Shown here piece by piece: positions 3,578 to 37,194 of a stretch of DNA of 51,714 nucleotides; position 1 is the stretch's first letter, and the number at the start of each line of letters is the position of its first letter. This stretch comes from Segetibacter koreensis DSM 18137. GTDB taxonomy: Bacteria; Bacteroidota; Bacteroidia; Chitinophagales; Chitinophagaceae. The notes below the pieces were generated by a model. The model saw nothing but the letters and a program-made list of their open reading frames with translations. It searched no databases and was not told the DNA's origin. The stretch covers positions 1 to 51,714 of the forward strand of contig NZ_KB893335.1 of NCBI RefSeq assembly GCF_000374045.1. Direction: 5' to 3'. The translations under genes and the position numbers were made by a program.

Positions 3578-3599
3578 GTGACCGCGTTAGGATTCAAAC
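3578..3599 (-). repeat. Displaced tRNA-Arg 3' end: left attachment-site copy
   Basis: Twenty-two bases here match the 3' part of the complete tRNA-Arg gene (37120-37141) at 21 positions: GTGACCGCGT, one differing base, then AGGATTCAAAC. On the minus strand this is the TPsiC-arm 3' half plus acceptor 3' strand. No other tRNA part is present. Such a one-sided copy is the usual scar of a tyrosine-recombinase element that integrated into a tRNA 3' end and restored it at the other border. Confidence 0.7.
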
Positions 3600-4017
3600 T
3601 GTATTTTCAAATGCTTATCCAGCAAGGGTTTCAAAAGAACTTGTCGTTGTAGGTATCCTATTAAGGCACCTACAAATTAAATCAAATTTAGTTAGAAAAA
3701 TCCCTTTCAAAATCACCTGCTGCAAAAATTTTTGTTTATGAAAGGAGACACGGGGGAAGATAACGAAAAATGTTCGCAGCCGCGGGCGACAGTAGTGACC
3801 CATCAATGACTGGGAGTAATAAGGTCAAATGCAACGCATTCTTCAATATCAAACAATGCAGGTAACAATCAGAAAGTCGAATTACTACGTTTATTGAAAA
3901 AAACAGTTTTTACTATTGGTGAAAAAGTTGGGGGATATCTGGCGAATTTATATATTACGCTATATTTGTTAGACTGACACTTAAACACCTACTTCCACAC
4001 AACGATTAATTAATCAT
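3600..4017. other. Left end of the island, no gene recognised
   Basis: Short open frames occur on both strands but none resembles a known protein. The only signal is the TAnnTTTG promoter motif at 3961. This is the leader of the arabinofuranosidase gene. Confidence 0.4.
3961..3968 (+). promoter_or_regulatory. Bacteroidota-type -7 element upstream of the arabinofuranosidase
   Basis: TATATTTG fits the Bacteroidota primary-sigma -7 consensus TAnnTTTG and lies about 50 bases before the start codon at 4018. A good -33 TTTG is not visible at the usual spacing; only a weak CTGG occurs there. Confidence 0.35.
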
Positions 4018-5922
4018 ATGAAAAATATTAAACGTTATATTTCAATTGTTGGTTTTATATGTAGTTCTATCGTTTCGTCTGCTCAATACCCCGGTCAGTA
4101 TGAGGGGAAAGAGAAAGTACAAGAGCAGGTACCGGTCAAAGCATATAGTTTCGATCTGCAGGATGTCACCTTATTAAAAAGCCCTTTTACGGAAAACAGG
4201 GATCGGGATGCACAGTGGTTGCTTGCACTGGAGAGTAAGAGACTGCTACATAGCTTTCGTGTAAACGCCGGCGTTGAAACCAATGCTAAACCCTTGGGCG
4301 GCTGGGAGGCATTGGATTGTGAACTGCGGGGGCATAGCATGGGACACATCTTATCTGGACTTGCTTTGATGTATGCTTCCACCAACGACGAAGCTTTCAG
4401 AAGGAAAGGAGATAGTCTGGTTACTGCCCTGGCTGAAGTGCAAACAGTGCTAAACCAGGATGGTTATTTAAGTGCTTTTCCACAATACTTCGTTGACCGT
4501 TGTATTGCGGGCAAGCCGGTATGGGCACCATGGTATACTATACACAAGATTATGGCAGGTATGATAGATATGTACCTTTACACGGGAAATCAGCAGGCAT
4601 TGGATGTTGTAAATAAAATGTCCTCCTGGGCTTACAAAAAACTTTCGCCTTTAAGCAAGGAGCGGTTGGCTATAATGGAAAGAAATGAGTTTGGTGGCAT
4701 GAGTGAATCTGCGTATAACCTGTATGCCATTACTGGCAATAAAGAGGATAAAGCCCTGTCTGAAATTTTTTACGACCAGAACGTTCTAGAACCACTTGCA
4801 AAAAAAGAAGACAAGCTGAATAAACTACATGCAAATACACAGATCCCGAAAATTATAGGTGAAGCCCGTGGATATGAATTGACCGGAACTGAAAAACAAA
4901 AAGATATAGCAAACTTCTTTTGGCAAACAGTCATTGACAATCATACCTATGCAACGGGAGGCAACAGTGATAATGAGCATTTTTTTGAACCCGGCAAGTT
5001 GTCTCAGCATCTGGGCGTTCGGACTACTGAATCCTGCAACACGTACAATATGCTAAAGCTCACTAAGCACCTCTTTACGTGGTCCGCAAATGAGCAATAT
5101 GCTGATTATTACGAGCAGGCTTTATACAATCACATACTGGCTACACAAGATCCACAAACATCGATGGTGTCTTATTTTATGCCTTTCAAGCCAGGTTCAT
5201 TTAAGGTGTACAGTACTGCAGATAGTTCTTTCTGGTGTTGTGTTGGCACCGGCTTCGAGAACCATGCAAAGTATGGAGAAGGCATTTATTATCATGATGA
5301 CAACGGGGTGTTTGTAAATCTTTTTATTCCTTCAGAGTTAAATTGGAAGGACAAAAAAGTTAAGATCCGCCAGGAAACACGCTACCCTGAAGATGCTACC
5401 ACAACATTAACGATGGAAGCACCAACAGATGTCGCACTATACATCCGTTATCCTTCATGGGCTGTCAACGGAGCAACCATTGCAATTAACGGAAAGAATG
5501 TTAAGGTTAATCAGAAGCCCGGCAGTTATATTGTATTAAACAGGAAATGGAAGGAAGGGGATAAAATCGGTATTACTTTTCCAATGTCGTTACGATTGGT
5601 AGGCACACCCGACAATCCTAACAAAGCTGCCATTGCCTACGGGCCTATTGTTTTGGCCGGGGCGATGGGAAAGGAAGGTATTGAAGCACCGGCTCCTTAT
5701 GCCAAAGATCAGAACGATCTTAATAACTACCCTGTGCCTGATAATCTCGTTCATCAATTAAATACCGGAGGACGCACGGTAACAGAATGGCTGAAGCCGG
5801 CTAACAATGCTGAATCATTAACTTTTGTAACCAGTAGTACTGCGAATGGAAAAGAGATCAGTATGATACCGTATTATAAAATACATCATCAGCGTTATGT
5901 AATTTATTGGGATTTGAAGTAG
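4018..5922 (+). CDS. Secreted GH127/GH146-type beta-L-arabinofuranosidase
   Basis: The 634-residue product begins with a signal peptide (MKNIKRYISIVGFICSSI, cleavage near SSAQ), then an (alpha/alpha)6-barrel and a C-terminal beta-sandwich, the architecture of PF07944 beta-L-arabinofuranosidases. The family's zinc/cysteine site is visible: Glu338 and Cys340 in TTESCNTYNML, and Cys407-Cys408 in SSFWCCVGTGFENHAK. In this family one of these cysteines is the catalytic nucleophile. EHFFEPGK around 320-327 should carry the acid/base Glu. Length is normal for the Bacteroidota branch, where GH127 and GH146 are hard to tell apart by eye. The expected role is removing L-arabinofuranose from arabinoxylan or arabinan oligosaccharides in the periplasm. 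It leads the xylan-degrading run (GH8 and GH10 follow). Confidence 0.88.
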   Translation: MKNIKRYISIVGFICSSIVSSAQYPGQYEGKEKVQEQVPVKAYSFDLQDVTLLKSPFTENRDRDAQWLLALESKRLLHSFRVNAGVETNAKPLGGWEALDCELRGHSMGHILSGLALMYASTNDEAFRRKGDSLVTALAEVQTVLNQDGYLSAFPQYFVDRCIAGKPVWAPWYTIHKIMAGMIDMYLYTGNQQALDVVNKMSSWAYKKLSPLSKERLAIMERNEFGGMSESAYNLYAITGNKEDKALSEIFYDQNVLEPLAKKEDKLNKLHANTQIPKIIGEARGYELTGTEKQKDIANFFWQTVIDNHTYATGGNSDNEHFFEPGKLSQHLGVRTTESCNTYNMLKLTKHLFTWSANEQYADYYEQALYNHILATQDPQTSMVSYFMPFKPGSFKVYSTADSSFWCCVGTGFENHAKYGEGIYYHDDNGVFVNLFIPSELNWKDKKVKIRQETRYPEDATTTLTMEAPTDVALYIRYPSWAVNGATIAINGKNVKVNQKPGSYIVLNRKWKEGDKIGITFPMSLRLVGTPDNPNKAAIAYGPIVLAGAMGKEGIEAPAPYAKDQNDLNNYPVPDNLVHQLNTGGRTVTEWLKPANNAESLTFVTSSTANGKEISMIPYYKIHHQRYVIYWDLK

Positions 5923-6219
5923 ATGAATTCCTGGCGAGTTGAATGGTTAAGCCATTGTTGATATATTAATTGTCCATCCCTTATCAATCAAAATCAATAT
6001 TAAATTAAATTACAGCCAATGAGTCTTAAGACCTTCGTTCGTCTGTGCTTGCGCCAACGTTGTTTAAAGAGTAAAATCATTGGAATGAAGAACAGTACGG
6101 TTATTTTTTAGCCGGCCCTTACCTCCTGTAACAGTATCTCTTTACTGCCTTTCAAGAAATATTCAAATAAGGGAATGACATTCAGAAATATAAAAGAAAA
6201 TTAAATCGCGTAATCTATA
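5923..6219 (+). other. Leader between arabinofuranosidase and GH8 genes
   Basis: About 300 bases with no recognised gene. The spacing suggests that the GH8 gene has its own promoter or that something was lost here; no SusC/SusD remnant could be recognised. Confidence 0.35.
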
Positions 6220-7506
6220 ATGAAGAAATGTAAGAGTAGCCTATTGCTGGTGATTATAGTTGTTTTTTTATTGCCTCTTCAGGCGTTTAATCAAAACAAT
6301 AAGCAAAGCAAAAAAACCACAAAGAAAGCAGCGTTCTATTCCGGCACCTATCGAAACCTTTTGCACGAGGCGGGGTACAGCCAGGCTGAGATTGATAAGA
6401 AAGTAGCCCAGGCTTATTCTGACGTCTTTGAGGGACCACACAAGGTCTACTTCGAGGTGGGTGATTCGATGGCTTATGTCTCCGACGTAAAAAACCACGA
6501 TGCCCGTACTGAAGGACTTTCTTATGGAATGATGATAGCAGTTCAATTAAATAAGAAGGATGTTTTTGACCGCATCTGGCGCTGGTCGAAAAAGTACCTG
6601 CAACACCAGGAAGGACCAAGAGAGGCTTACTTCGCCTGGAGCATCAATCCGCAAACAATGAAGAAGAACTCTGAAGGCTCGGCTTCTGATGGTGAGCTGT
6701 ATTTTGTAACCGATCTTTTGTTTGCTTCGAACCGCTGGGGCAATAACATCGGAATTAATTATTATGGCGAAGCCAGACGCATACTGGATGCGGCCTGGAA
6801 GAAAGATGGTACCGGAAACGTTTTCAACCTCATCAACACGCAGCACAAACAAATAACCTTTGTTCCTGAAGGAGATATGCACAACTGGACGGATCCTTCT
6901 TATCACTTACCCGCCTTTTATGAAATTTGGGCTAAATACGCTGAAGACGGTCATGAACAATTTTACATGGATTGTGCAGATACTTCCCGATCTTTCTTGC
7001 ATAGAGCTTGCAATGCAGTAACAGGGCTGAATGCCGATTATACTGAGTTCAGTGGCGCACCACATCCTACACCATGGATGCCGGTAGGCTTCCGGTTCGA
7101 CTCATGGCGTGTGCCTATGAACATTGCGATGGACTATAATTGGTTTGGTAAGGACAGAAGTTGGCAAGAGGATTACGCTAAACACTTTCAAAATTTTCTA
7201 CTGTCGAAGGGCATTGACACTTTTGAGGACCAGTTTAACCTGGACGGCTCCCGTCCTGATACAATTCTGCAGGCTGGCGGATTTAAAAAGCTAAGACACT
7301 CGCTCGGGTTAGTAGGTACGGCGGCAACAGCCTCACTTGTCAGCAAGGAAAAGAATAGCCTGGATTTTGTACATGCACTTTGGAATGCCAAACTACAACC
7401 GTATGAAGACGGTTATTTCGACCCATATTACGATGGTTTATTGTATTTATTCAGCCTGATGCATTTAAGCGGCAAATACCAGGTCATCAAACCACAAGCA
7501 CATTGA
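6220..7506 (+). CDS. GH8 reducing-end-xylose-releasing exo-oligoxylanase (Rex-like)
   Basis: The 428-residue protein has a signal peptide (KSSLLLVIIVVFLLPLQAF) and a complete GH8 (alpha/alpha)6 domain. Catalytic motifs are visible: Glu98 in DARTEGLSYGMMIA (general acid), Asp157 in SASDGELYFVTDLL, and Asp294 in FRFDSWRVPMNIAM. The length and the EGLSYGMM / SDGELYF / FDSWRVPMN set fit the exo-oligoxylanase (Rex) branch better than endoglucanases or chitosanases, but the subgroup call is by eye. Rex enzymes release xylose from the reducing end of xylo-oligosaccharides. It sits between an arabinofuranosidase and a GH10 xylanase, so it would act on the products of the latter. Confidence 0.88.
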   Translation: MKKCKSSLLLVIIVVFLLPLQAFNQNNKQSKKTTKKAAFYSGTYRNLLHEAGYSQAEIDKKVAQAYSDVFEGPHKVYFEVGDSMAYVSDVKNHDARTEGLSYGMMIAVQLNKKDVFDRIWRWSKKYLQHQEGPREAYFAWSINPQTMKKNSEGSASDGELYFVTDLLFASNRWGNNIGINYYGEARRILDAAWKKDGTGNVFNLINTQHKQITFVPEGDMHNWTDPSYHLPAFYEIWAKYAEDGHEQFYMDCADTSRSFLHRACNAVTGLNADYTEFSGAPHPTPWMPVGFRFDSWRVPMNIAMDYNWFGKDRSWQEDYAKHFQNFLLSKGIDTFEDQFNLDGSRPDTILQAGGFKKLRHSLGLVGTAATASLVSKEKNSLDFVHALWNAKLQPYEDGYFDPYYDGLLYLFSLMHLSGKYQVIKPQAH

Positions 7507-7848: not shown

Positions 7849-8991
7849 ATGAAGATAAATTGGCTGTTTAAAAATTCTCAAATAATGAATGCACAAAAAG
7901 GATGGTTAATCGCGGCTGTTTTATTGCTCCTTTGTTCCTCTTCCTACAGCCAAAAACCAATTCGGTCAAATATTACCAGCGCCAAAGGATTAAAAGATTA
8001 TTATCAGGATTATTTTCCAATTGGTGTTGCGGTTGCTCCCCGAATGCTGCATGGCGATGACTCTGCATTAATCCTTTCTCAGTTCAACAGTCTGACTGCC
8101 GAGAACGCAATGAAGATGGGGCCTATCCATCCCAGGGAGCATGAATATTACTGGAAAGATGCAGACTCTATTGCCACATTTGCAAAAAAACATGGAATGA
8201 GGTTGCGTGGTCATAATCTGTGTTGGCATTCCCAGGCTCCGTCATGGATGTTTGTAAATGAAAAAGGCGATACCGTTTCAAAACAAGTTTTACTGCAACG
8301 ATTGAAGGAACACATAACAACGGTAGTAAATCGATACAAAGATGTTATCTATGGATGGGACGTTGTGAACGAAGCAATCGACGACAGAGACTCAGTTTTC
8401 TACCGGCAATCGGCATGGTATAAAATCTGTGGCGAAGATTTTATTGCCAAAGCGTTTGAATATGCACACGCTGCTGACCCAAAAGCAGTTCTCTTCTATA
8501 ACGATTACAACACAGAAAATCCAAAGAAACGGGAGAAGATTTACCAGACGGTCAGAAAGTTGAAGGAGGCTGGTGTTGCTATCCATGGAGTGGGTTTGCA
8601 AGGTCACTGGTCACTCAATAACCCATCCCGGGAAGAATTGGAAAAATCTATACAAATGTTTTCCTCACTTGGTTTGCAAGTTCAGGTAACAGAAATGGAT
8701 GTTTCAGTGTATGCAGGCCGTCAGGGTGGTCAGCTTATTCAGAATCAAAATCAGGCAGCTGCAACCTTCACTGGCGACATGGAGCAGCAGCAACGGGACA
8801 AGTACAAGATGGTGTTTGATGTTCTCCGGGAGAACAAAGGCAAGATATCGGGAGTAACATTCTGGAATGTCAGTGACAGCTACAGCTGGCTCGATGGCAG
8901 GGGCAGAAAAAATTATCCGTTGTTGTTTGATATGAACCGTCAACCGAAGAAAGCCTATTGGGATGTGGTCAACTTCGTTGAGACGAAATAG
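7849..8991 (+). CDS. Secreted GH10 endo-1,4-beta-xylanase
   Basis: A full GH10 TIM barrel of about 335 residues follows a signal peptide. Acid/base Glu175 lies in WDVVNEAIDD and nucleophile Glu282 in QVTEMDVSVY; the substrate-binding motif RGHNLCWHSQAPSW is also complete. The start may be Met1 (MKINWLFKNS) or Met13 (MNAQKGWLIAAVLLLL, start 7885); the latter gives a more normal signal peptide ending near SYSQ. No carbohydrate-binding module or T9SS domain is present, so it probably acts in the periplasm or is exported by another route. It supplies xylo-oligosaccharides to the GH8 enzyme. Confidence 0.95.
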   Translation: MKINWLFKNSQIMNAQKGWLIAAVLLLLCSSSYSQKPIRSNITSAKGLKDYYQDYFPIGVAVAPRMLHGDDSALILSQFNSLTAENAMKMGPIHPREHEYYWKDADSIATFAKKHGMRLRGHNLCWHSQAPSWMFVNEKGDTVSKQVLLQRLKEHITTVVNRYKDVIYGWDVVNEAIDDRDSVFYRQSAWYKICGEDFIAKAFEYAHAADPKAVLFYNDYNTENPKKREKIYQTVRKLKEAGVAIHGVGLQGHWSLNNPSREELEKSIQMFSSLGLQVQVTEMDVSVYAGRQGGQLIQNQNQAAATFTGDMEQQQRDKYKMVFDVLRENKGKISGVTFWNVSDSYSWLDGRGRKNYPLLFDMNRQPKKAYWDVVNFVETK

Positions 8992-9049: not shown

Positions 9050-9361
9050 TTAGACCTCAATCTCCATTTCCAGCAACGCGTAACTTAGGGTTTTGCCGTG
9101 TGTATCCATAACCAATGATGTAGTTACGCCACCGCCCAGTGCCTGCTGACAAACAAATTGTAAAGCAGCTATATTGGGCAGATCATATCGGATGATGTCG
9201 CCACGAACAATTTCTCTCAAATGCTCTTTTACTTTTTCTGCAGTTACCTCCCTGCATAGGAGTTCGAAATCTTTTTCATCATAAGGAATTAACGACAATG
9301 TAAGTGTATTTCCCTTGTCACCGGCCCGGCTATGGGCTATTTCGTAGAGCTTTTGTTTCAT
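9050..9361 (-). CDS. AtuA-like small subunit (ferredoxin-fold)
   Basis: The 103-residue protein (KLYEIAHSRAGDKGNTLTLS, LLCREVTAEKVKEHL, LPNIAALQFVCQQALGGGVTTSL, HGKTLSYALLEMEI) matches the small domain that is fused to the C terminus of AtuA (DUF1446) in many species. Here it is a separate gene whose ATG overlaps the end of the large subunit by 4 bases, so the two are translationally coupled. The SRAGDKGN segment is the most conserved part of the family. The biochemical role is not established; AtuA genes were named for acyclic terpene utilization. Confidence 0.85.
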   Translation of the reverse strand: MKQKLYEIAHSRAGDKGNTLTLSLIPYDEKDFELLCREVTAEKVKEHLREIVRGDIIRYDLPNIAALQFVCQQALGGGVTTSLVMDTHGKTLSYALLEMEIEV

Positions 9362-10680
9362 GTTGATTTTACTGTTACGGTTGCTTTAATTCGGTTGCGA
9401 TCGATAAGTGTGGAGACAATACCTACTACTTCATTAACATATTTACGAACACCGCCGCCTCCTGCTGGACCATTCGTATAAAGTGCTTCCACCTCTTCAC
9501 CAATCAGTGCTGCTTGGGCCGCTGTTGCAGCTTTTCCCGCTACTCTCAACCGGACTTCATAAGGATGACTATTTTCCCCAAGCGAAGGAGGATGCACAGA
9601 AGTGCAACCAATATAGTCAAGGCGCAGATCAGCGAACCTAGCTTGAATTCGCTTTCGAATAGTTTCACCAGCAAGTTGCGCCCGTTCCAGCGCGTACATA
9701 CCAGCGTACGAAATTTCCCCTTCACCAACAAAGCCCGCTTTGTAACCTACACTCACTTTTAGTGTAACAGGTTTTTGTTTACCACCTCCACCATTTACGC
9801 TTACACAGTCGATTCCTTCGAGCTGCACGCCAACAGTTGTAAAATCAGCTACGACGTCAGGAGTAATATACTCGTGCGGGTTGGTGACTTCATATAGCAA
9901 CTGCTCTTTTGTAGTAGCCAGATTGATGATGCCTCCGGTGTCTTCTACCTTGCTGATGGTAGCCTTACCATCCGCTCCTACATCTACAAATGGATGCCCT
10001 AATCTATCCATACCTTCAACCGGCTTTTTTACTGGGTCAGCAAAGTACCCCCCGGTAATTTGTCCTGCGCATTCCATTAAGTGTCCGATGACCGTTGCTT
10101 TTCCTATAATTTCTGTATTGTCTAGTGACCAACCAAGTTCTTTTACGAGAGGGGCAACAACCAGAGACGGATCCGCAACTCTACCTGTAATGATAATATC
10201 AGCCCCTGTTTGCAGGGCCGGCAAAATTGCATCAGCTCCTAAATAGGCATTAGCAGAAAGTATTTCACCTGATTGAGACAACGCCTTTCCGGTTTCCATC
10301 GCTGTTTCTTCTCCGGTAAGCATGTGCAATATATCGTCACCAGTTACTGCTGCCACTTTCACCGATAAACCTAATTGTTTTGCTATCTCGATTACCTTGT
10401 CTGCTGCTGCGATCGGATTGGCGGCACCCATATTCGTTAACAGCTTTACGTTGTGTTTTTTAAGTAAGGGCAACAAAAGTTCAATCCTTCTTTCAAGCAT
10501 TGGATCATAGCCTTTTGTCGGGTCTGCAGCTTTTCGTTTTTGTGCCAATCCAATCGTTCGTTCTGCCAGGCATTCGAGCACTAAGTAATCGAGATTACCT
10601 TTTTCAACAAGAACGGCAGCCGGCTCGATTCTATCACCTGAAAACCCGGCGCCGCAACCAATTCTTACTTTTTGCTTCAT
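9358..10680 (-). CDS. AtuA / DUF1446 acyclic-terpene-utilization family protein
   Basis: The product has about 440 residues if translation starts at the ATG at 10680 (MKQKVRIGCGAGFSGDRIEP); an upstream in-frame ATG at 10725 adds 15 residues that look unlike the family. Conserved stretches include GCGAGFSGDRIEPA, DYLVLECLAERTIGLA, NMGAANPIAAADKV, DIIITGRVADPSLVVAP, AGQITGGYFADP and YIGCTSVHPPS. There is no signal peptide, so it is cytoplasmic. The frame overlaps the small AtuA-like gene by 4 bases. It is the fifth gene of a minus-strand run headed by esterases and a CitMHS transporter. AtuA homologues often accompany carboxylate transporters and acyl-CoA genes, which suggests carboxylic-acid catabolism; no CoA gene is present here. 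Confidence 0.88.
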   Translation of the reverse strand: MKQKVRIGCGAGFSGDRIEPAAVLVEKGNLDYLVLECLAERTIGLAQKRKAADPTKGYDPMLERRIELLLPLLKKHNVKLLTNMGAANPIAAADKVIEIAKQLGLSVKVAAVTGDDILHMLTGEETAMETGKALSQSGEILSANAYLGADAILPALQTGADIIITGRVADPSLVVAPLVKELGWSLDNTEIIGKATVIGHLMECAGQITGGYFADPVKKPVEGMDRLGHPFVDVGADGKATISKVEDTGGIINLATTKEQLLYEVTNPHEYITPDVVADFTTVGVQLEGIDCVSVNGGGGKQKPVTLKVSVGYKAGFVGEGEISYAGMYALERAQLAGETIRKRIQARFADLRLDYIGCTSVHPPSLGENSHPYEVRLRVAGKAATAAQAALIGEEVEALYTNGPAGGGGVRKYVNEVVGIVSTLIDRNRIKATVTVKST

Positions 10681-10821
10681 CTTTATTTTTTTTAAATCAA
10701 CCCTTTCTAGGAACAGCTCTGGCATTAGAAATCGCTATAGAAAAAATATAACAATGGCTGATAAGTGCAGCAGTTTCGTTGTCTACTTATCAACTAAGGA
10801 AGTGTTTAAAACACTAGTAGA

Positions 10822-11827
10822 TCATTTCAACTTATTTTCATCCAGGCGAAAAAAACGAACAGCGTTGTTGAAAAAGATATCGCGTTTTTGATCGAAAGAA
10901 AGATAGTTCGCATTTTCAATTACCCCGATGGAAGTTTCAAGAAGCTTCGGCCATATCATAAGATCAGTGCCATACATAATTCTTTTTTCAAAACCAGCCT
11001 GTACCAGTCTTTTAATGTAATCGTTTACTTCTGCAAGGGGATAACTCCAAATCATACCAGCGACGTCTACATATACATAAGCGTTTGCACCCATCAGTGC
11101 AATCATTTCATCGATCATTGGATATCCTGCATGCATCACCCATACTTTAAGTTTTGGATGGCGTGCAAGTAAGTCTTCCAACAATAATGGATTTCCCATA
11201 GAGGCACGGTATTTTGGCGAGGAAATATTTGCCATACCATTTCCCCCCAGTACCCAAATGAATGCCTACTGGTATATTCAATTTTTCTGCAGCCCCAAAG
11301 TAGGCATCGAGTGAGGTGTCACTCGGGGACATGCCCTGGTACTGTGGTGCGACTTCGCCCATTACTTTATAAAAACCGGATGAAAGCGAATCCGTGAATG
11401 CCATTACTGTCATTTCTTTTGAAGCGCTGAGGGTAAGGGAAGGAATGACCCTGCCCGGCTCCGCTGCTTTTTGCCAGCGGCGAATAATAGACGCATCACC
11501 ACTGGCAATAATTGTCATATTCAACCGCTTCATAGTAGCAATCAATGAGTCCTGGAATTCTTTATCTGACTTTGCTGCCTTAAGGGGTGTAGCACAATCT
11601 GTATTTATAAAAGAGGGCGGCGGCTGGTTGGGATCGCCTCCCGGCATATTGCTTAAAAACCAGGGGCACATATCTGCAGCAAAGGCAGGATTGACCTTCA
11701 TTGCATGTACATGTACATCAATAATAGGCAGGTGCCTACTTTTTGCAGCATTCTGTGCATACATCTTTGCTGTCGACAATAACAATGCAATGGTAACAAT
11801 AACGGAGCAAGTAATTTTTGTTCTCAT
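10822..11827 (-). pseudogene. Exported amidohydrolase (PF04909-like), split by one frameshift
   Basis: Two overlapping frames form one TIM-barrel metal-dependent hydrolase. The 5' frame has a signal peptide (TCSVIVTIALLLSTAKMYAQ) and the metal-binding HxH (His39, His41 in IIDVHVHAM), and stays in register to IPVGIHLGTGG. The 3' frame continues with NPLLLEDLLARHPKLKVWV, the metal-site His in MHAGYP, and YGTDLMIWP with the catalytic Asp. The switch lies at a GGGGGG-AAA run near 11250, so a single-base slip explains it. It may be a true mutation, a sequencing error or programmed slippage. The substrate is unknown; the family includes decarboxylases and lactonases. It lies between the transporter and AtuA genes. 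Confidence 0.8.
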
Positions 11828-11870: not shown

Positions 11871-13166
11871 TTATATGTGAATAGATCCTGTTAAGAGTGC
11901 AATGATCGTCATTACGATTGTAGTGCCCCATGCCCACTTAAAAATAAACTTTTGATGGTCACCTAATTCTACTTCTGCCAAACCTATTAATAAAAAAGTA
12001 GAGGCAGTAAGCGGACTCAAAGGAAAGCCTACTGTCATTTGTCCTAATAGAGAAGCCCTGCCAATTTCAAGTGGATCCACCCCAAGCTGCGAACAGGTAT
12101 GACTAAGTACTGGCACTACACCAAAATAATAAGCATCAGGCGTAAATAGTATACTTGCTGGCATACTGATAATAGCCGTAAGAACAGGTATGAACGAAGC
12201 ATGTTCTTTCGGAATCAAATTAACCAAACCTGATGCCATCGCTGCTATCATTTTTGATTCTGTAAGAATACCTGAATACACACCGGCAGCAAATATTAAA
12301 CTAGACACTAAAAAAATATTCGAAGCATGTGCTTTTAGTACCTTTTGCTGATCCGGGAGTTTGTTGTAATTAATCATTAGTGCAACAACAGCCGCAATAA
12401 CAAATAAAACCGGTGCAGGCACCACGCCTATTAACAGTGCAGTAATAAGCGATATGGTTAATATAGCATTAATGAGAATCAATTTAGGTCTACGCAAAGC
12501 TTTTTGATCTTCGGTTAGATTTTCCCTGTGCTCATAATCAAATTGAATGATGCCAATACGTTTTCTTTCCCTCTTTCCAAAAATGTAGGCTACAAACAAC
12601 ACCCAAACCAAGCCACCCAACATTGCAGGAATATTTGGATTAAACATGTGTACCGCGTCTGTATTTAGCGTTGACATTGCTCTTACTGATGTACCTGACC
12701 ACGGCACCAGGTGCATAGGTCCTACGCTCAGGGCTACAATGCCAGCTAGTATCAGCCTGTTAATTCCTAGTCGTTTATAGATGGGCAAAAAAGTAGAAAG
12801 CACGATCATAAAAGTAGCCGTGCCATCACCATCTAAATGAACAAGCATGGTAAGTACAGCTGTACCTACAATAACCTTTAGTGGGTCGCCCTTTACAGAA
12901 CGCACAATGATGGCAATAACCGGATCAAACAAACCGACATCGAGCATCACTGAAAAATATAAGACCGCAAACATTAAAAGAATTCCGGTAGGCGCAACTT
13001 GCTTTATACCAGCCAAAGACATGGCTCCGATTTCTTTATAACTAAAACCGGCAACAAAAGCAATAATAACAGGAACTAACACCAAAGCTGTTATCACAGA
13101 CAAACGCTTTGTCATGATAACGACGAGAAAAATAATGATAGTAACTACGCCATAAACTGCAAGCAT
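11871..13166 (-). CDS. CitMHS-family carboxylate transporter
   Basis: The 431-residue protein has about 12 hydrophobic segments and motifs of the citrate-Mg2+:H+ symporter (CitMHS) family: HLDGDGTATFMIVLS near residue 110, GPMHLVPWSGTSVRA, and MPASILFTPDAYYFGVVPVL. The length is typical. The family carries metal-complexed citrate or related carboxylates across the inner membrane. It is preceded by two esterase genes (10-bp gap) and followed by a hydrolase and AtuA, so the substrate may be an acid released from an ester; the substrate is an inference. No regulator is adjacent. Confidence 0.9.
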   Translation of the reverse strand: MLAVYGVVTIIIFLVVIMTKRLSVITALVLVPVIIAFVAGFSYKEIGAMSLAGIKQVAPTGILLMFAVLYFSVMLDVGLFDPVIAIIVRSVKGDPLKVIVGTAVLTMLVHLDGDGTATFMIVLSTFLPIYKRLGINRLILAGIVALSVGPMHLVPWSGTSVRAMSTLNTDAVHMFNPNIPAMLGGLVWVLFVAYIFGKRERKRIGIIQFDYEHRENLTEDQKALRRPKLILINAILTISLITALLIGVVPAPVLFVIAAVVALMINYNKLPDQQKVLKAHASNIFLVSSLIFAAGVYSGILTESKMIAAMASGLVNLIPKEHASFIPVLTAIISMPASILFTPDAYYFGVVPVLSHTCSQLGVDPLEIGRASLLGQMTVGFPLSPLTASTFLLIGLAEVELGDHQKFIFKWAWGTTIVMTIIALLTGSIHI

Positions 13167-13176: not shown

Positions 13177-14049
13177 TTAGTTTACATACGATCCATTTTC
13201 TTTAAAAACCTTTGAGAAAAACAAAGCATGGAATGGCAGCGAATTCTGCCAATAATCCCATGTATGCGAACCAGGTCGTTCTGAATAATCATGGGGGGTG
13301 CTATTAAAGACTAGCCTTCTATGCAACTCACGGTTAGCTTCAATTAAAAAATCTTCAGTGCCATCATCAAAAATCAGTTTGATGTTTGCAGCTTTTATTT
13401 TGTCGGCCATGTTTATTACAGACGCATCAGCATATGCCTGTCGGTTTGTCTCAAGCGGTCCTAAAATTTTTTCGAATTCTTTTCTGATACCTTTTTCCAT
13501 ATCCGGCGCCATCTTCCAGGCCTGCATGTCAGGGTTTAAGGCTCCGCTCATACTGCCAGCCGCGCAGAACAAATCAGGATGACGTGCAGATAAACACAAT
13601 GCACCATAACCACCCATGGATAAGCCGGTAATGGCTCTTCCCTTTCTGTCTTTTATGGTATGGTACGTGTTGTCGATCTTCTCCACCACTTCTTTACTGA
13701 TATAGGTTTCAAACTGACTTTCCTTATTTACAGGGCTATTAAGGTAATAACTGAAGACTTCACCTTCGGGCATCACAACAATCATGTTATATTGATCCGC
13801 CAGTCTCTGGATCAAAGTTTTTTCGGGAGTCTTTCTTATCCAGTCGTCAAAATGTCCATAGCCGCCATGTAGTAAGTACAGTACGGGATAAGTTGTGGTA
13901 TTAGATGCATACGAAGCGGGCAAAACAATAACTGCCTTATACGTTTTATTCATAACATTGCTTCGAATTGCAATTGTGTCAACAGTTGCTGCAAACGTTT
14001 TTATAGTCAGAAACAGGAGAATAGTTAAGTATACCAGAGACTTTCTCAT
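13177..14049 (-). CDS. Secreted esterase (PF00756, esterase-D/tributyrin-esterase-like)
   Basis: The 290-residue alpha/beta-hydrolase has a signal peptide (SLVYLTILLFLTIKTFA), the oxyanion strand YPVLYLLHGGYG, the nucleophile elbow GLSMGGYG (Ser144), a probable acid Asp233 in DGTEDFLIE and His262 in GSHTWDYW. All triad members are present. Homologues are carbohydrate esterases or tributyrin esterases; the xylan context favours an acyl group on xylan or its oligosaccharides. It starts 27 bp after the next esterase and ends 10 bp before the CitMHS gene, so it is in their operon. Confidence 0.85.
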   Translation of the reverse strand: MRKSLVYLTILLFLTIKTFAATVDTIAIRSNVMNKTYKAVIVLPASYASNTTTYPVLYLLHGGYGHFDDWIRKTPEKTLIQRLADQYNMIVVMPEGEVFSYYLNSPVNKESQFETYISKEVVEKIDNTYHTIKDRKGRAITGLSMGGYGALCLSARHPDLFCAAGSMSGALNPDMQAWKMAPDMEKGIRKEFEKILGPLETNRQAYADASVINMADKIKAANIKLIFDDGTEDFLIEANRELHRRLVFNSTPHDYSERPGSHTWDYWQNSLPFHALFFSKVFKENGSYVN

Positions 14050-14076: not shown

Positions 14077-15114
14077 TTATTCAAACTCCAAATAGTCAGC
14101 AAAGAAGGGAAGCATCTCGTTAAGTACCCTTCCATCTGTTGTCCAGATCTTATTTACATGCGTTCCTATGTATTCTTCAGCATAATGCTCTATCCCGTGG
14201 TTCTCTAATGCCTGGCTGAACATACCACATTGCACAGGAAAGCGCGGCGAGTCGTTTCTACCCCAATCCAATTTTATCGCTTTTAATTTTTTTAGATTCG
14301 ATGCATATTGGTCTACCATGTACAATGGCATGTTAGCTTGCCATTTTTTGTAAACTACCGTATCTACCACGAGGCTATCGCCAATGTAATTAAAAGGAAG
14401 GTCTATGTAAAACGGCGGCTTGTTAGGATTAGGAGACCACGCTGACGCGCAAGCTGCAATGACTTTAGGGTAATAAGATTTGTCTAAATCAGCCTTGGTT
14501 TTAATAGCAGCGAGTTGTTTATAAGAGTCACTATTAGGCCCGAACTCTTTTACAAAAGCAAGTAACCCGGGGCTAAGGGCATACACGCAACTAAAAACAT
14601 CAGGGTAAAGCATTGCGATTTTCAATGCACCGTAGCCGCCCATGGAATGACCACCTATACCCCGTGAATTTCGGTTTGCAATAGTTTTGAAATTTTTATC
14701 AACGTAAGCGACTAACTCCTTTGCCTCAAAATCGCTCCAGTTGCCTATTGATGACGAATTACTATAAAAACTTCCACCAAGCGCAGTGTAGTTGTCGGCG
14801 ATAACTAAAATGTAAGGACGGATTTTGTTTCTTGCAATGCCCAAATCAAGAATGCTTTTCATGTTAGGCGCAATGCTATCGGTGCCGCCGAACCCGTGTA
14901 GATAGTAAATAACAGGATAACGTTTTTTCGACTGTTCGTAACCCGGCGGCAGGTATACCGAGATTTTCCTGTTGGGATTTTCTCCCGAGGTATTTTTTAA
15001 GTAAGTGGAGTTAAGGATCCTCGTAATCACCGTGCCGGAAGAAATTTGGCTTTCAGCGTCATATACCGAAGCTAGTAGTAATATGAGAACAACGAATCTT
15101 TTCATATAGGGCAA
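14077..15114 (-). CDS. Secreted esterase (PF00756), first gene of the operon
   Basis: The 345-residue protein starts at Met1 or more likely Met4 (MKRFVVLILLLASVYDAESQ, signal peptide). It has YPVIYYLHGFGG, the nucleophile elbow GGHSMGGYG (Ser157) and His319 in IGTHVNKIW. The family is the same as the next gene but the two are not close copies. A much closer paralogue, cut off after residue 230 or so, lies at 24815-25513, so this gene was duplicated within the island. Expected action is hydrolysis of acyl or feruloyl esters outside the cytoplasm. No gene lies directly upstream, so the operon promoter should be at about 15120-15220. Confidence 0.87.
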   Translation of the reverse strand: MPYMKRFVVLILLLASVYDAESQISSGTVITRILNSTYLKNTSGENPNRKISVYLPPGYEQSKKRYPVIYYLHGFGGTDSIAPNMKSILDLGIARNKIRPYILVIADNYTALGGSFYSNSSSIGNWSDFEAKELVAYVDKNFKTIANRNSRGIGGHSMGGYGALKIAMLYPDVFSCVYALSPGLLAFVKEFGPNSDSYKQLAAIKTKADLDKSYYPKVIAACASAWSPNPNKPPFYIDLPFNYIGDSLVVDTVVYKKWQANMPLYMVDQYASNLKKLKAIKLDWGRNDSPRFPVQCGMFSQALENHGIEHYAEEYIGTHVNKIWTTDGRVLNEMLPFFADYLEFE

Positions 15115-28150: not shown

Positions 28151-28169
28151 TGAGTATTAGTAATTATAA

Positions 28170-30680: not shown

Positions 30681-33600
30681 ATGAAACGGCAGTTTTTGCT
30701 TCTTACAAGCTTACTTGCTTTACTAGGTAGTTTTGGACAGGATCGCTTTCTTGATCGCTCGTTCGGTAATAAAGGGCGCACTTACCTTGATTTTCGAAGA
30801 GGTAACTATGAAAGTGAAAACGGCAGACAAGTGTTGTTGCAAACTGACGGTAGTTATATCGTGATATTTATGCAGAACGGCTATACTCTAATGGCCCGTT
30901 ATAATTCTACCGGAATTTTAGACAAAACCTTTGGTTCAGAAGGTTTTTCTGAGCCCTTTCGGATAAATCCGATAACAGCAATACAGCAAACTAATGGGAA
31001 AATAGTAGTGCTTGGAGAATCTTTTGATGTTGCTCGCTATTATGCTAATGGCACTTTAGATCTTGGCTTCGGAACTGGTGGAAAAGTAAGCACAAATTTT
31101 GGAGGTTTTGATCGCTCTACTTCAATAGCTATTCAAGGCGATGGAAAAATAGTAGTAACCGGTTGGACTCAAGATGCGAGTAATAATTATAAGACGTGTT
31201 TTGCATTGGCTCGTTACAATCGTAATGGCTCCCGGGATAAAAGTTTTGGAAATGGCGGCAAGGTGATAACAGATTTAGGAGGCTCAAGTTGGGCTTCCGG
31301 GACTGTCATTCAAGATAATGAAAAACTAGTAGTGGCAGGGTCTAAAGAAGAACCTGATATAAGCGGTTCTGATTTTGTATTAGCTCGGTACAATCCAAAC
31401 GGTTCGCTTGATTCCAGCTTTGGGAATAAGGGTCAGGTGACGACGGATTTTGGAGGTTTTGGCTGGGCTAGCGCTGTTGTCATAGAAGATGATGAAAAAC
31501 TAGTAGTAGCAGGAGGCAATGAGGATCTGGATCATGTAAACCGCAATCTCATTTTGGCTCGGTATAATAGCGACGGTTCTCTGGATGACTCCTTTGGAAA
31601 AGGCGGCAAAGTAATAGAAGATTTTGGATCTATTGATAGAGCTAGTTCTATTGCTATTGCAAAAGACGCAAAAATACTAGTGGCAATGGGGGCCGACCTG
31701 CCTGACAATCCCCACACTAACTTTATGTTCGCTCGTTTTAATTATGATGGAACATTAGATAACACTTTCGGTACAGACGGTAAAGTAAGTACTGATTTTC
31801 TAAGTAATGCCGATGCTGCAAATTCCCTCGCTATTCAGAAGGATGGAAAAATAGTTGCCATAGGTACTGCCTATAATCCAACAGATACTGCCTATAATAT
31901 CAACTCTGATTTAGCCCTTGCGCGCTACCTTGCTAATGGCACTTTAGATACTACATTTGGAAATAACGGAAAGCTAATTAGTTATTACCCAACAGGTATC
32001 TTTACAATTAAAATTTTAGCCAATCAAAAAGATGGGAAACTGGTAGTAGCAGGAAATAGTCAAACTCCCCATAGCGAATATTCTGATTTTGCCCTTGCCC
32101 GTTACAATTTTGATGGCTCCTTAGATTCTTCTTTTGGAAAGGGAGGCAAGGTCGTTACTGACATTGGAGGTGATGGCAATGTTACTTATGCAGCTATACA
32201 GGAAGATGGTAAAATAGTAGTAGTAGGCAGTCGTAATCCAAATACTCAGACTGGTGCTGATATTGCTCTTGTCCGCTATAATCCCGATGGCTCCTTAGAT
32301 AGTAGTTTTGGCATTACTGGTAAGGTTCTTACTGATTTTGGATACACAGATATTGCTTTTGCAATAGCTATTCAAGGGGATGGAAAACTAATAGTGGCAG
32401 GATATACGGGCTATGAAGGCAAGTTTACTCTTGTTCGTTACAATAAGGATGGTTCTTTAGATAATACCTTTGGTAACAATGGCAAGGTAATTACTGATTT
32501 TGGAGGAGGTAGCTCTTCTGCCACTTCAATAGCAATTCAAGACGATGGCAAACTTGTGGTAGGAGGAAACGTTTACTTTGATAGCACCTATGGGGATTTT
32601 GTGCTTGCCCGCTATAATCCTGATGGATCTCTTGATAAGGCTTTTGGGAACGGCGGTAAGTCGGTTACTGATTTTGGAGTAAGTAATGACGGTGCTTTCT
32701 CCCTCGCCATTCAGACAAATGGCAAAATAGTACAGGGAGGCTATGTTTATGATTTCAGATCTCATAATTATAGTTACGCCCTTGCTAGTTATAATACAGA
32801 CGGTTCTCTAGATCGTACGTTTGGGAAAGACGGAAAATTAATTACCGAGTTAGCAGGAAAGGTTGGATTTATAAAGGCTACCAATTCTTTGGCTCTTCAA
32901 AATGATGGAAAGATGACGGTGGCTGGTATAAGCAATAAAGCCGTTACTCTCGCTCGTTACAATCCTAATGGCTCCTTAGATAGTAGTTTTGGCAATTATG
33001 GAAAAATTACTACCAAATTTTCAGTTGATAATTTTGAGGTTACTACTCTTATAAGTAACAAAAAAAGGGCGTATGTAGGAGGACCTTGTACAAATGGACT
33101 ACCAAGAAATCAACGAGGCTTGATAGCAGCATATAACCTAGAGGCAACTCCTTCTTCTCTTATCAATACTTACACTTTGATTGACGCAGGAAATGATAAA
33201 GACATCGAGGAACTTAAAGACGGGTTAACTATCAATTTAGCTTCCCTCTACACTCTTCATCTAAATGTTAGGGCTAATACCACTCCTTATAAAGTAGATA
33301 GTGTAAATTTTACTCTTATCGGAATAGAAGAACGGCAGCATACCGAAAACGCATCCCCGTATGCATTGTTCAATGATGACAGGGGGAATTACAACAATTG
33401 GACCCCTGCTGCTGGTAATTATACTCTCACTGCTACCCCGTATCTTAATGGAGTAGCTGGCACACCGCTCACCATACACTTTGAAGTTACTCCTTTCCTT
33501 GTTAGCAGCTTTACCCTTGTCAATGCAGATAATGAAGAAGACATTTCCGCCTATCAGACCATTCATGACGGTGCTATCATCGATCTTAATACCCTTCCGA

Positions 33601-34040
33601 CCCCAAATGTTAATATCAGGGCAAATGTGCGTCCTCATCAAGTTGGAAGTGTAATGTTAAATCTAGACGGAAAGACTCATATAGAGAACGGACCTCCTTA
33701 TGCTTTAGGTGGAGATATAGCCGGCAATTATTTCCCAATGACTTTAACCTTGGGTAGTCATACCCTCACTGCTACTCCTTATAGTCAAAGCAATGGGAAA
33801 GGCGAAAAGGGACAATCTCTTACTGTACACTTTACAGTAATGCAGTCAGCCATCACGGAGAATGGAGGAATGAAAAAAATGAATGGGGCAGCAGCAAGTG
33901 GCATGGAGTTAAACAAACCAGTTAATTTTTTTTCTGAACGGACACCAACGTATTTATTCAATGACAATAATAGATGGTTAAATCATTATTCATATTCGCG
34001 GTACGCTCCGAAATTAGCCAACCGATCTTCTCCCAATTGA
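30681..34040 (+). CDS. Secreted delta-60 repeat protein, 14 repeats
   Basis: The 1119-residue protein begins with a signal peptide (MKRQFLLLTSLLALLGSFGQ). Fourteen copies of the delta-60 motif (GSLDxSFGxxGKV, then IAIQxDGKIVVAG and LARYN) follow at intervals of about 55-60 residues from residue 23 to 800, forming beta-propeller-like blades. Two similar Ig-like segments (TLIDAGNDKDIEELKDGLTI and TLVNADNEEDISAYQTIHDG) occupy about 830-1040. Such proteins are surface proteins of unknown ligand and normally end in a T9SS sorting domain. Here the last 75 residues are low-complexity and not like a T9SS domain, and the final 55 bases run into the antisense of the next gene's end. The C-terminus was probably lost. 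Confidence 0.85.
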   Translation: MKRQFLLLTSLLALLGSFGQDRFLDRSFGNKGRTYLDFRRGNYESENGRQVLLQTDGSYIVIFMQNGYTLMARYNSTGILDKTFGSEGFSEPFRINPITAIQQTNGKIVVLGESFDVARYYANGTLDLGFGTGGKVSTNFGGFDRSTSIAIQGDGKIVVTGWTQDASNNYKTCFALARYNRNGSRDKSFGNGGKVITDLGGSSWASGTVIQDNEKLVVAGSKEEPDISGSDFVLARYNPNGSLDSSFGNKGQVTTDFGGFGWASAVVIEDDEKLVVAGGNEDLDHVNRNLILARYNSDGSLDDSFGKGGKVIEDFGSIDRASSIAIAKDAKILVAMGADLPDNPHTNFMFARFNYDGTLDNTFGTDGKVSTDFLSNADAANSLAIQKDGKIVAIGTAYNPTDTAYNINSDLALARYLANGTLDTTFGNNGKLISYYPTGIFTIKILANQKDGKLVVAGNSQTPHSEYSDFALARYNFDGSLDSSFGKGGKVVTDIGGDGNVTYAAIQEDGKIVVVGSRNPNTQTGADIALVRYNPDGSLDSSFGITGKVLTDFGYTDIAFAIAIQGDGKLIVAGYTGYEGKFTLVRYNKDGSLDNTFGNNGKVITDFGGGSSSATSIAIQDDGKLVVGGNVYFDSTYGDFVLARYNPDGSLDKAFGNGGKSVTDFGVSNDGAFSLAIQTNGKIVQGGYVYDFRSHNYSYALASYNTDGSLDRTFGKDGKLITELAGKVGFIKATNSLALQNDGKMTVAGISNKAVTLARYNPNGSLDSSFGNYGKITTKFSVDNFEVTTLISNKKRAYVGGPCTNGLPRNQRGLIAAYNLEATPSSLINTYTLIDAGNDKDIEELKDGLTINLASLYTLHLNVRANTTPYKVDSVNFTLIGIEERQHTENASPYALFNDDRGNYNNWTPAAGNYTLTATPYLNGVAGTPLTIHFEVTPFLVSSFTLVNADNEEDISAYQTIHDGAIIDLNTLPTPNVNIRANVRPHQVGSVMLNLDGKTHIENGPPYALGGDIAGNYFPMTLTLGSHTLTATPYSQSNGKGEKGQSLTVHFTVMQSAITENGGMKKMNGAAASGMELNKPVNFFSERTPTYLFNDNNRWLNHYSYSRYAPKLANRSSPN

Positions 34041-35132: not shown

Positions 35133-35146
35133 GTTCGAGCTATTGT

Positions 35147-35626: not shown

Positions 35627-36868
35627 TTACTCGTATGATAAGCCAGACAACTTACGCTCTAACGTACCCATATCCGCGCTCACTTTATTCTCAAGCACCT
35701 TCGCATAAATTTGAGTGGTTGTAATTTTTGAATGACCTAACATATTGCTTACCGTTTCTATTGGTACGCCATTAGTAAGCGTTATCGTTGTAGCAAACGT
35801 ATGGCGAGCCATATGAAATGTAAGATTTTTCCTAATTCCACATACATCAGCAATTTCTTTTAAATAAGCATTAGTTTTAATATTACTGATAACAGGCAGA
35901 AGTTTACCTCTGTTTATACTTTGCTGATCGTTTTTATACTTTTCAATAATTTGAAGGGCTTTTGGTAACAAGGGAATGTTCGATTTTTCATTTGTCTTTT
36001 CGCGGAAAGTATAAATCCATTTTTTACCGTCAATCCCAACTACTAAATTATCAGGAGTCAGTTTTTCTACGTCAACATATGCTAAGCCGGTATAACAAGA
36101 AAAAATAAAAATATCCTTCACTTTTTCAAGCCGCTCTAATTCAAAAATTTTCTTTTCAATAGCATCCAATTCTACCGGCCTTAGAAAAGTTCTGTGGGTC
36201 TTTTCCGCTGTTGCCTCAAATGCTATAAATGGGTCTTTGTCAAGCCAGTTTTTACTTACCGCTCTTGTTGCAATTTTTCTAATTCGTTGAATATGTTTGA
36301 TGATAGCATTTGTACCACATCCCCAGTTTCTTCGTGCATAGCTATCAAACTCCCTTAAAAAGTTTTCGTCTAATTCTTTAAAAGAAATATCTAAACGCCG
36401 ATATTTTTTTACCAGGAATTCTTTTAAATGCCCTAAAGTCACTCTCCAGTTTTTAATGGTTCCAATTGAGAAATCTATATTAACTCTTGCCTCCATTTCC
36501 GCCAGGTATTCTGAAAAAGATAAAACAAGCGTTCTTTGCTTGTGCAAGGAACCTAACAATTCATTTTTAATATCGTCTGCACTCAGGATTTTGCCTTTTT
36601 CAATCAATCCGTTGTAAACTTCTCTTGCACGATGCTCAAATGTTTCAATTGTTTGATTAAGTCTTTTACTCTCTTGAAAGGGACTTTTTACTCTGCCCTT
36701 AGCTGCATTCCATTTGAGAGGATCTACAAACGTTTTGGTAGAAAGCTCCGCTCGTTTGCCATCAAGTGTTATTCGTAAATAAACCGGGGCTTGGCCATCC
36801 TTGTTCGCTTTGTCTCGTCTTAGATAAGAGAGTAGCGAAAATGTGTGTTTCTGTATCATACGTTTCAA
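35627..36868 (-). CDS. Tyrosine recombinase (island integrase)
   Basis: The 413-residue protein has an Arm-binding-like N-terminus (LSYLRRDKANKDGQAPVYLR), a SAM-like core-binding domain (about 100-210) and a catalytic domain. HMAR (His352, Arg355), LGHS (His379) and the nucleophile QIYAK (Tyr388) are present. The first catalytic Arg position reads TGLA rather than TGLR, a substitution known from the IntDOT group of Bacteroidota recombinases. The gene starts 250 bp from the complete tRNA-Arg gene, as usual for integrases that use a tRNA 3' end. It is intact, so excision may still be possible. Confidence 0.9.
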   Translation of the reverse strand: MKRMIQKHTFSLLSYLRRDKANKDGQAPVYLRITLDGKRAELSTKTFVDPLKWNAAKGRVKSPFQESKRLNQTIETFEHRAREVYNGLIEKGKILSADDIKNELLGSLHKQRTLVLSFSEYLAEMEARVNIDFSIGTIKNWRVTLGHLKEFLVKKYRRLDISFKELDENFLREFDSYARRNWGCGTNAIIKHIQRIRKIATRAVSKNWLDKDPFIAFEATAEKTHRTFLRPVELDAIEKKIFELERLEKVKDIFIFSCYTGLAYVDVEKLTPDNLVVGIDGKKWIYTFREKTNEKSNIPLLPKALQIIEKYKNDQQSINRGKLLPVISNIKTNAYLKEIADVCGIRKNLTFHMARHTFATTITLTNGVPIETVSNMLGHSKITTTQIYAKVLENKVSADMGTLERKLSGLSYE

Positions 36869-37062
36869 TTTTTGGTATCTTTTTTAGTCAAAAACGATTA
36901 AAAAAGACGCTTTAAAAGTTTTGAATTTAATAAGCTGAAACGCACTGCTGGTAAGATTTTGAGTGCGATTCGATACCTAAATTTAATTTTTAGAAATAGG
37001 TATCCGAATAGGGCACCAGCAGTTTGATATTATTTGAATAGTTTTGACACGGCTAAAAACAC

Positions 37063-37096
37063 AAAAGCCAGCACATCAATGATTTAGCTGGCTTTT
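37063..37096 (-). terminator. Terminator between tRNA-Arg and integrase gene
   Basis: A 10-bp perfect stem (AAAAGCCAGC at 37063-37072, GCTGGCTTTT at 37087-37096) with a 14-nt loop, followed on the minus strand by a T-rich tail. It ends transcription of the tRNA-Arg gene, which reads toward the integrase, and is of island origin if the tRNA 3' border is the attachment site. Confidence 0.75.
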
Positions 37097-37117
37097 AATA
37101 TGTTTTGAATTGCTATC

Positions 37118-37194
37118 TGGTGACCGCGTAAGGATTCAAACCTTAAACCTTCTGATCCGTAGTCAGATGCTCTATTCAGTTGAGCTACGCAGCC
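37118..37194 (-). tRNA. tRNA-Arg (anticodon ACG), CCA encoded
   Basis: The minus strand folds into a complete cloverleaf of 77 bases. The acceptor starts GGCTGCG and ends CGCGGTC-A-CCA (two G-U pairs). The anticodon stem TCTGA/TCAGA encloses the loop CTACGGA, giving anticodon ACG (arginine, CGN codons; A34 is normally changed to inosine). The TPsiC arm contains GGTTTGAATCC. The 3' 22 bases are repeated at 3578-3599, which marks this gene as the integration target. Confidence 0.92.

Follow-up and report, generated by a model that had tools for sequence, protein, structure and literature searches.

The question raised by this locus is what kind of element lies between the tRNA-Arg gene of Segetibacter koreensis DSM 18137 and a displaced copy of the 3' end of that gene, and how its carbohydrate-enzyme cargo is related to it. 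The stretch analysed, hereafter the window, was contig NZ_KB893335.1 of this strain (51,714 nt; its genome is coded G000 and those of relatives are coded likewise). The block 3578–37141 was identified, with high confidence, as a canonical integrative and mobilizable element (IME) whose insertion site is the 3' end of tRNA-Arg(ACG). A preliminary description of the window had proposed a tyrosine-recombinase island in this tRNA gene, and this is borne out by an empty junction in the genus relative G004 and by an element with both of the same ends in Segetibacter aerophilus.

Ends of the element and their counterparts in relatives

The only tRNA detected by ARAGORN in the window was tRNA-Arg(ACG), in agreement with Rfam (RF00005, 59.8 bits). 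Its 3' end is repeated, with one mismatch, at the other side of a 33.5-kb span, and the ends of this span comprise the following features.

3578–3599, minus strand: attL core, the displaced 22-bp 3' end of tRNA-Arg, 21/22 identical to 37120–37141; equivalent junctions in G009, G005, G018 and G202
37118–37194, minus strand: restored tRNA-Arg(ACG), with the attR core at 37120–37141 (ARAGORN, Rfam and repeat match)
3532–3568, minus strand: terminator-like hairpin of the original tRNA-Arg, now on the far side of the island (from sequence; homologues in G004 and G016)
37063–37096, minus strand: right-end terminator-like hairpin, now after the restored tRNA (from sequence and the alignment of six right ends)
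3600–3713: conserved left end, with AATGCTTATCCAGCAA at 3610–3625 (alignment of four left ends; 16-mer search)

The 22-bp copy of the tRNA end described earlier was thus recovered, and no third site was found in the window on either strand with up to six mismatches. Rfam, at its gathering threshold, gave no tRNA at 3578–3599, as expected from the description of this copy as lacking any other tRNA part. Across the genome, the pattern GTGACCNNGTNAGGATTCAAAC with up to two mismatches had three sites, which were both island ends and one two-mismatch site on contig C24 that adjoins a weak match (76%) to the tRNA query. The two hairpins, one by the displaced copy and one by the restored tRNA, are unlike when judged by eye, in agreement with the claim of two different terminators, one per tRNA end. 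The hairpin of 3532–3568 type was present in G016 as well, beside a displaced tRNA-Arg fragment (86% identity over window 3529–3599).

The preliminary description had predicted that, in a relative lacking the island, a terminator of the 3532–3568 type would come immediately after tRNA-Arg. This arrangement was observed in G004, where the sequence just beyond the end of tRNA-Arg (2512492) aligns to that terminator (79% identity over window 3530–3599). The only integrase relative of G004 at E ≤ 1e-60 is at position 2298939, 0.2 Mb from its tRNA-Arg. Integration with direct repeats is therefore accompanied by an empty site in a relative, at the level of the junction.

The closest counterpart is in Segetibacter aerophilus NBRC 106135 (G009), a member of the same genus. 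Its contig NZ_BJYT01000004.1 carries a 12.9-kb element, hereafter element A (G009:C4:17541–30440), collinear with the backbone of the window's island; nucleotide identity was 82% at the left end, 75–79% in the mobilization block and 88% over the integrase and right end. On this contig the left junction is at 17541, the complete tRNA-Arg is at 94758, and between them, at 30419, lies a right junction that retains 43 nt of tRNA; this arrangement can be read as two or more insertions, one after another, at a single tRNA.

The left end is also shared more widely. Window 3577–3713 is 82% identical to S. aerophilus and 3570–3718 is 77% identical to G005. The 16-mer occurred in 10 of 394 genomes of the family, in five beside a tRNA-Arg fragment (G000, G005, G009, G018 and G202) and in five elsewhere, and a more stringent pattern for the left end had matches in 2 of 294 genomes of the family. 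At G233:C1:107449 (L201) the left-end motif is present with no tRNA-Arg fragment and with TTTGTTGCC-type repeats further inward; by these motifs, that locus may be a relative of the element at another target.

Integrase, candidate arm sites and mobilization genes

The backbone of the island encodes an integrase, a putative excision factor and a mobilization block.

35627–36868, minus strand: tyrosine integrase with Arm-DNA-bind_5, Phage_int_SAM_5 and Phage_integrase domains (Pfam); 91% amino acid identity in S. aerophilus
18708–19034, minus strand: HTH_17 protein, candidate excisionase (PF12728); 90% identical in S. aerophilus
16627–17544, minus strand: MobA/VirD2-type relaxase, MobP-like (PF03432, E 1.5e-34); 69% identical in S. 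aerophilus
17541–17903, minus strand: NikA/MbpA-like relaxosome accessory protein (PF21983, E 3.7e-20; NF041418 MbpA, 1.3e-12, below cut-off); 83% in S. aerophilus
16022–16609, minus strand: 195-aa mobilization-block protein with no Pfam match; 67% identical in element A
17935–17976: possible oriT, inverted repeats upstream of the NikA-like gene (repeat finding)
3650–3670: candidate left arm-type integrase site, TAGGTATCC-TAT-TAAGGCACC, with 17/20 bases as in the right-end site; similar in S. aerophilus and G005
36997–37017: candidate right arm-type integrase site, TAGGTATCC-GAA-TAGGGCACC (end comparison; right-end alignment)

The integrase had been placed just inside the complete tRNA, and its open reading frame (ORF) starts 250 bp from the tRNA 3' end. 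This site-specific integrase is the island's own, and a full-length alignment with nine relatives was obtained; across the ten aligned sequences, that of the window included, the motif positions of tyrosine integrases (HxxR, H and Y) were invariant. When one genome per species was scanned, 339 relatives were detected, from which 80 loci, not thinned for relatedness, were kept. A complete tRNA on the same strand lies 212–627 bp before the integrase at 68 of these 80 loci: 50 are Arg (35 ACG, 9 TCG and 6 TCT), 6 Leu, 5 Ser, 4 Asp, 2 Pro and 1 Lys. The remaining 12, including the S. aerophilus locus with its partial tRNA, had no tRNA in range. A homologue of the HTH_17 protein was encoded on the inner side of the integrase in 31/80 loci and on the outer side in 0/80, and this protein is likely to be the excision factor.

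A 20-bp stretch is common to both ends (from 3650 and from 36997) with 3 mismatches, compared with 4 in the best of 60 base shuffles, and consists of two 9-bp direct repeats spaced 12 bp. The elements of the window and of S. aerophilus have repeat pairs of TAGGTATCC type at either end, whereas those of G018 and G202 have pairs of TTGTTCACC type at both ends, as does the DXS locus at its right end. Since the left and right motifs change together between lineages, they behave as expected of binding sites for one integrase. Repeats of 9-mers with a 12-bp period (at least 8/9 matching) were present in 19 of 68 right ends versus 3.8% of shuffles, which were plain base shuffles that periods 10, 19 and 20 exceeded likewise. 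The paired 9-bp repeats are likely to serve as integrase arm sites and are regarded as candidates for this function.

The presence of mobilization genes inside the island was confirmed by Pfam, which recognised both the relaxase and the NikA/MbpA-like gene. The island thus carries its own relaxase of a canonical family, PF03432 being above cut-off; the class of the relaxase is likely rather than certain, because the NCBIfam models NF041325, NF041893 and NF041420 (MobP-type and Bacteroidota MobB) match below their cut-offs. All of the 443 plasmid records retrieved with the relaxase were below 60% identity. The inner inverted repeat of the possible oriT, GTTTTTGT/ACAAAAAC, recurs upstream of the S. 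aerophilus NikA-like gene. In a Pfam scan (E ≤ 0.001) of all 35 island ORFs of at least 100 aa, shorter ORFs being outside its scope, no coupling-protein, mating-pore or phage structural family was found, and the complete conjugation machinery of an integrative and conjugative element (ICE) was accordingly not found on the element among the same ORFs.

By description, the island resembles the IMEs of Bacteroidetes, which carry their own relaxase and no type IV secretion system (T4SS); NBU1 and MTnPi4 are integrated in the 3' end of tRNA-Leu and NBU2 in that of tRNA-Ser by tyrosine integrases, and ICEs mobilize Tn4399, Tn4555, NBU1 and NBU2, whose relaxases are of the MobP class (PMC5704250). 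The likeness to NBU1, NBU2, MTnPi4, Tn4555 and Tn4399 consists of a relaxase of their own and no T4SS, and with NBU1, NBU2 and MTnPi4 it extends to a tyrosine integrase and a tRNA 3' end as target. The island differs from the NBU1 type, on the same descriptions, in its tRNA-Arg(ACG) target, its size of 33.5 kb and its carbohydrate-enzyme cargo.

In the proposed mechanism, the integrase would recombine the 22-bp core of a circular element, from the T-loop to the tRNA 3' end, with the chromosomal tRNA. The element's own 3' end would restore the tRNA gene (attR), and the original 3' end with its terminator would be displaced by 33.5 kb (attL). The paired 9-bp repeats near the ends would act as arm sites and the HTH_17 protein as excision factor. 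Transfer would begin with the nicking of an oriT by the relaxase together with its NikA/MbpA-like partner and would exploit the secretion system of another element. The cargo occupies two slots of the backbone shared with the 12.9-kb S. aerophilus element, with GH127/146, GH8, GH10 and esterases in the left slot and a mixed, partly decayed set in the right one. A helper is conceivable in the same genome, where a Bac_Flav_CT_G (TIGR03783) conjugation ATPase gene of Bacteroidota ICE type is intact at G000:C24:347001–349433 (1138 bits); the S. aerophilus genome had no match to this ATPase. Additionally, a second TraG-like ATPase gene, at G000:C28:2582–5020, is interrupted by stop codons.

Other occupants of tRNA-Arg and the T-stem mismatch

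Element A has the ends, mobilization block, integrase and target of the window's island but a different cargo: an SrpI-like encapsulin with a cyclic-nucleotide-binding domain, a class-V aminotransferase and a cyclase (L073:3914–8173, C4). The aminotransferase resembles, in our reading of its sequence, a cysteine desulfurase, and the encapsulin-type cargo looks like a protein-compartment operon on a mobilizable element. In G018, an island of 33.6 kb with the same left-end motif lies between a complete tRNA-Arg and a displaced core (two mismatches to the pattern); it encodes SusD, a TonB receptor of SusC type, GH29, a GH88-like enzyme, a LacI regulator and a two-component sensor (L081–L083), and its alignment to the integrase is limited to an 82-aa stretch. 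The arrangement in G202, a genome from the genus of G018, is similar (L208–L210), its sugar-locus genes being judged by eye against those of G018, with two successive left ends at approximately 40.4 and 42.4 kb of its contig. In G006, the right end is present beside its own tRNA-Arg, together with a stretch of 87 aa of the integrase and a luciferase-like gene (95% amino acid identity to that of the window). In the integrase scan, SusC-like genes were on the inner side in 9/80 loci and on the outer side in 1/80 (Fisher p 0.018), with no correction for kinship and with an inner 10 kb that may extend beyond the element.

The single mismatch between the two core copies falls at tRNA position 64 (our own numbering), in the T-stem. 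Pair 50–64 is T-A in the full tRNA-Arg genes of G001, G002, G003, G005, G006 and G009, C-G in G004 and the more distant relatives resolved, and A-T in the window only; in this tally some genomes were counted twice and the pattern missed some more distant loci. The displaced copy of the window holds the A64 of the T-A allele, and position 50 lies outside the 22-bp repeat and is therefore chromosomal. The simplest account of these sequences would be that the tRNA was of T-A type before insertion, and that both bases of the functional gene were altered during integration or later. The mismatch is thus more likely to stem from the functional tRNA having changed than from the displaced copy having decayed; alternatively, attL may have mutated later to the common allele, and the new base may have come with the element or arisen by mutation. 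In S. aerophilus, in parallel, the displaced copy has the C-G-type base and the tRNA the T-A pair. The preliminary description had suggested an old insertion on the grounds of the mismatch and of decay. The mismatch does not show decay of the displaced copy, which keeps the base of six relatives, whereas decay of parts of the cargo is real.

We tentatively propose, as an idea with perhaps one chance in three, that tRNA-Arg(ACG) of the Chitinophagaceae is a dock for a family of cargo-swapping elements, in which each insertion would replace part of the T-stem, the host gene would compensate at the paired base and the old allele would be fossilised in attL. The metabolic modules of such a family would be the xylan enzymes of the window, the encapsulin and cysteine desulfurase-like protein of S. 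aerophilus and the SusC/SusD locus of G018 and probably G202.

Cargo and alternative histories

The cargo of the window's island is distributed as follows.

4018–5922, plus strand: GH127/GH146 beta-L-arabinofuranosidase-type enzyme (PF07944, E 1.3e-122; best solved match 5opj, 3e-117)
6220–7506, plus strand: GH8 enzyme, like reducing-end xylose-releasing exo-oligoxylanases (PF01270, E 8.5e-25)
7849–8991, plus strand: GH10 endo-xylanase (PF00331, E 8.9e-105; xylanase part of NF041944, 381 bits, below the whole-protein cut-off of 1200)
9050–9361 and 9358–10725, minus strand: AtuA-like pair (Pfam)
10822–11235 (Pfam match) and 11147–11827 (no match), minus strand: amidohydrolase-type region in two ORFs
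11871–13166, minus strand: CitMHS transporter (Pfam; TIGR00784, 514 bits, cut-off 259.7)
13177–14049 and 14077–15114, minus strand: two PF00756 esterases (Pfam), with matches below cut-off to several esterase models, including the esterase half of NF041944
19261–35600: second cargo segment (Pfam), with approximately 1.9 kb between the equivalent flanks in S. aerophilus

Pfam and solved-structure matches agree with the earlier placement of GH127/146, GH8 and GH10 genes inside the island; the structure 5opj is presumably a GH146 enzyme. The best solved match of the GH8 enzyme was 22gt, named only as a cellulase (5.5e-89), followed by Rex/Rex8A and xylanase Y chains (1.5e-76 to 3.4e-74). Together with the two esterases, these genes suggest, from their family assignments, the use of decorated xylan. 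Enzymes of GH127/146 act on beta-L-arabinofuranosides and not on the usual alpha-L-arabinofuranosyl branches of arabinoxylan. Of the arabinoxylan cargo named in the preliminary description, the xylan part is therefore indicated by GH10 and GH8, while arabinoxylan is a plausible but unproven label, since beta-L-arabinofuranosidase action is not specific to that substrate.

Neither SusD nor a TonB receptor was found among the 35 island ORFs, so that the cargo lacks the SusC/SusD pair of a polysaccharide utilization locus. In gut Bacteroidetes, 47 SusC/SusD loci on mobile elements are reported (PMC6907783). As in those loci, carbohydrate-degradation genes are carried here on an integrated element; in contrast to them, GH10, GH8, GH127/146 and esterases occur without SusC/SusD, whereas the related island of G018 does carry genes of this type.

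A GH8 homologue of 75–78% identity was encoded in 4 of 58 other genomes searched. In the 8–20 kb around these four homologues, a GH10 relative was present in G039 only (38%) and a partial GH127-like gene in G016 only (31%); distant esterase matches were seen near those of G005, G016 and G039. These neighbourhoods thus offered no ready chromosomal source of the GH127/146–GH8–GH10 cluster.

The second cargo segment encodes a luciferase-like monooxygenase (19736–20767), an MRJP-like protein, a CBM6 protein, DoxX, and esterase and luciferase-like fragments. It also contains a long DUF5122 protein (30681–34040) with approximately ten repeat units, most of which recur at intervals of some 174 nt. 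Outside the island, window 6–408 and 51397–51714 have near-identical counterparts (97–99%) on other contigs of this genome, as would be the case for repeats at assembly breaks.

Several observations weigh against the IME reading. Flank synteny with G004 was not found beyond the tRNA and terminator, so that the empty site is demonstrated at the junction only; among the ORFs listed in the 7.5 kb after its tRNA-Arg, the nearest encodes a DUF6089 protein, and no flank synteny around the tRNA was found at DNA level with nine genus relatives. The DXS locus, with 63% integrase identity, had no left core near its tRNA with up to two mismatches, and the exact left-end motif was absent from 59 kb around it. 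In G003, the right-end hairpin stands beside tRNA-Arg on a contig with no integrase relative at E ≤ 1e-60; this hairpin may be a scar, and alone it is no proof of an element. The inverted repeats at 17935–17976 are a possible oriT by sequence, and a candidate only. S. aerophilus lacks a counterpart of the second cargo segment, and the GC content of a fourth cargo segment (0.386) is like that of the right flank. Finally, the amidohydrolase is split over two ORFs, luciferase-like and esterase genes have shortened copies, and 25 listed ORFs cover 0.71 of the island and 0.55 of the mobilization segment; with broken cargo ORFs and incomplete coverage, the element may be immobile.

Immobility is at the centre of the alternative that survives best, namely that the island is a domesticated fossil kept for its enzymes. 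This is compatible with an IME origin and has, in our judgement, nearly an even chance. The broken genes, the cores of attL and attR that are no longer identical, and the integrase stretches of merely 82 and 87 aa in the islands of G018 and G006 speak for it. Against it, the genes for the integrase, the relaxase and the NikA-like protein have intact reading frames that are conserved in S. aerophilus, and the HxxR, H and Y positions of the integrase are unchanged.

Slightly less probable, although a serious possibility, is a composite accretion in which a small IME arrived first, the glycoside hydrolase cluster and the 16-kb right segment were added in place, and the 33.5 kb never moved as one unit. 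Extra DNA is confined to two slots of a backbone collinear with the 12.9-kb element: from the left end to the mobilization block there are approximately 11.8 kb in the window versus 5.3 kb in S. aerophilus (alignment ends), and from the HTH_17 segment to the integrase approximately 16.4 kb versus 1.9 kb. An HTH_17 homologue lies within 2.5 kb of the integrase end in 25 of 29 listed loci of relatives, against 16.6 kb here, and luciferase-like and esterase genes occur twice each, with one copy shortened. Three of four cargo segments have GC contents of 0.416–0.419, above those of the integrase and mobilization segments (0.355–0.368; flanks 0.345 and 0.382), a contrast by which cargo and backbone may have different histories. 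On the other hand, S. aerophilus likewise has cargo in both slots, and the luciferase-like gene of G006, at the right end beside its own tRNA-Arg, indicates that elements of this sort may carry some of the right cargo with them.

An ICE or a prophage in place of an IME is highly improbable: a tyrosine integrase in a tRNA gene is compatible with all three classes, but the scan of 35 ORFs gave no coupling, mating-pore or phage structural family. The weakest alternative, a chance or common dispersed repeat, which the preliminary description had named as fatal to its proposal, was rejected as next to impossible on the repeat scans, the exact tRNA end, the empty junction and the same junction in relatives, although 3 of 150 random island 22-mers also had a second copy in the window with at most one mismatch.

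Elements of this kind are already known, and carbohydrate loci on mobile elements of Bacteroidota are known from the gut (PMC6907783). No literature was found on genomic islands of Segetibacter or IMEs of Chitinophagaceae, nor on an encapsulin with a cysteine desulfurase on a mobile genetic element, which does not prove their absence from print. The IME of S. koreensis goes slightly beyond the routine in three respects: cargo is swapped at a single tRNA, the repeats at the two ends co-vary, and the T-stem keeps a record. It is a well-bounded vehicle by which plant-cell-wall enzymes may spread among environmental Bacteroidota. Its lineage-specific repeat pairs at both ends provide a testable arm-site model for a widespread integrase subfamily of this phylum, and an earlier allele of the tRNA may be preserved in the attL copy, which would give a handle on whether integrating elements drive change in tRNA sequences.

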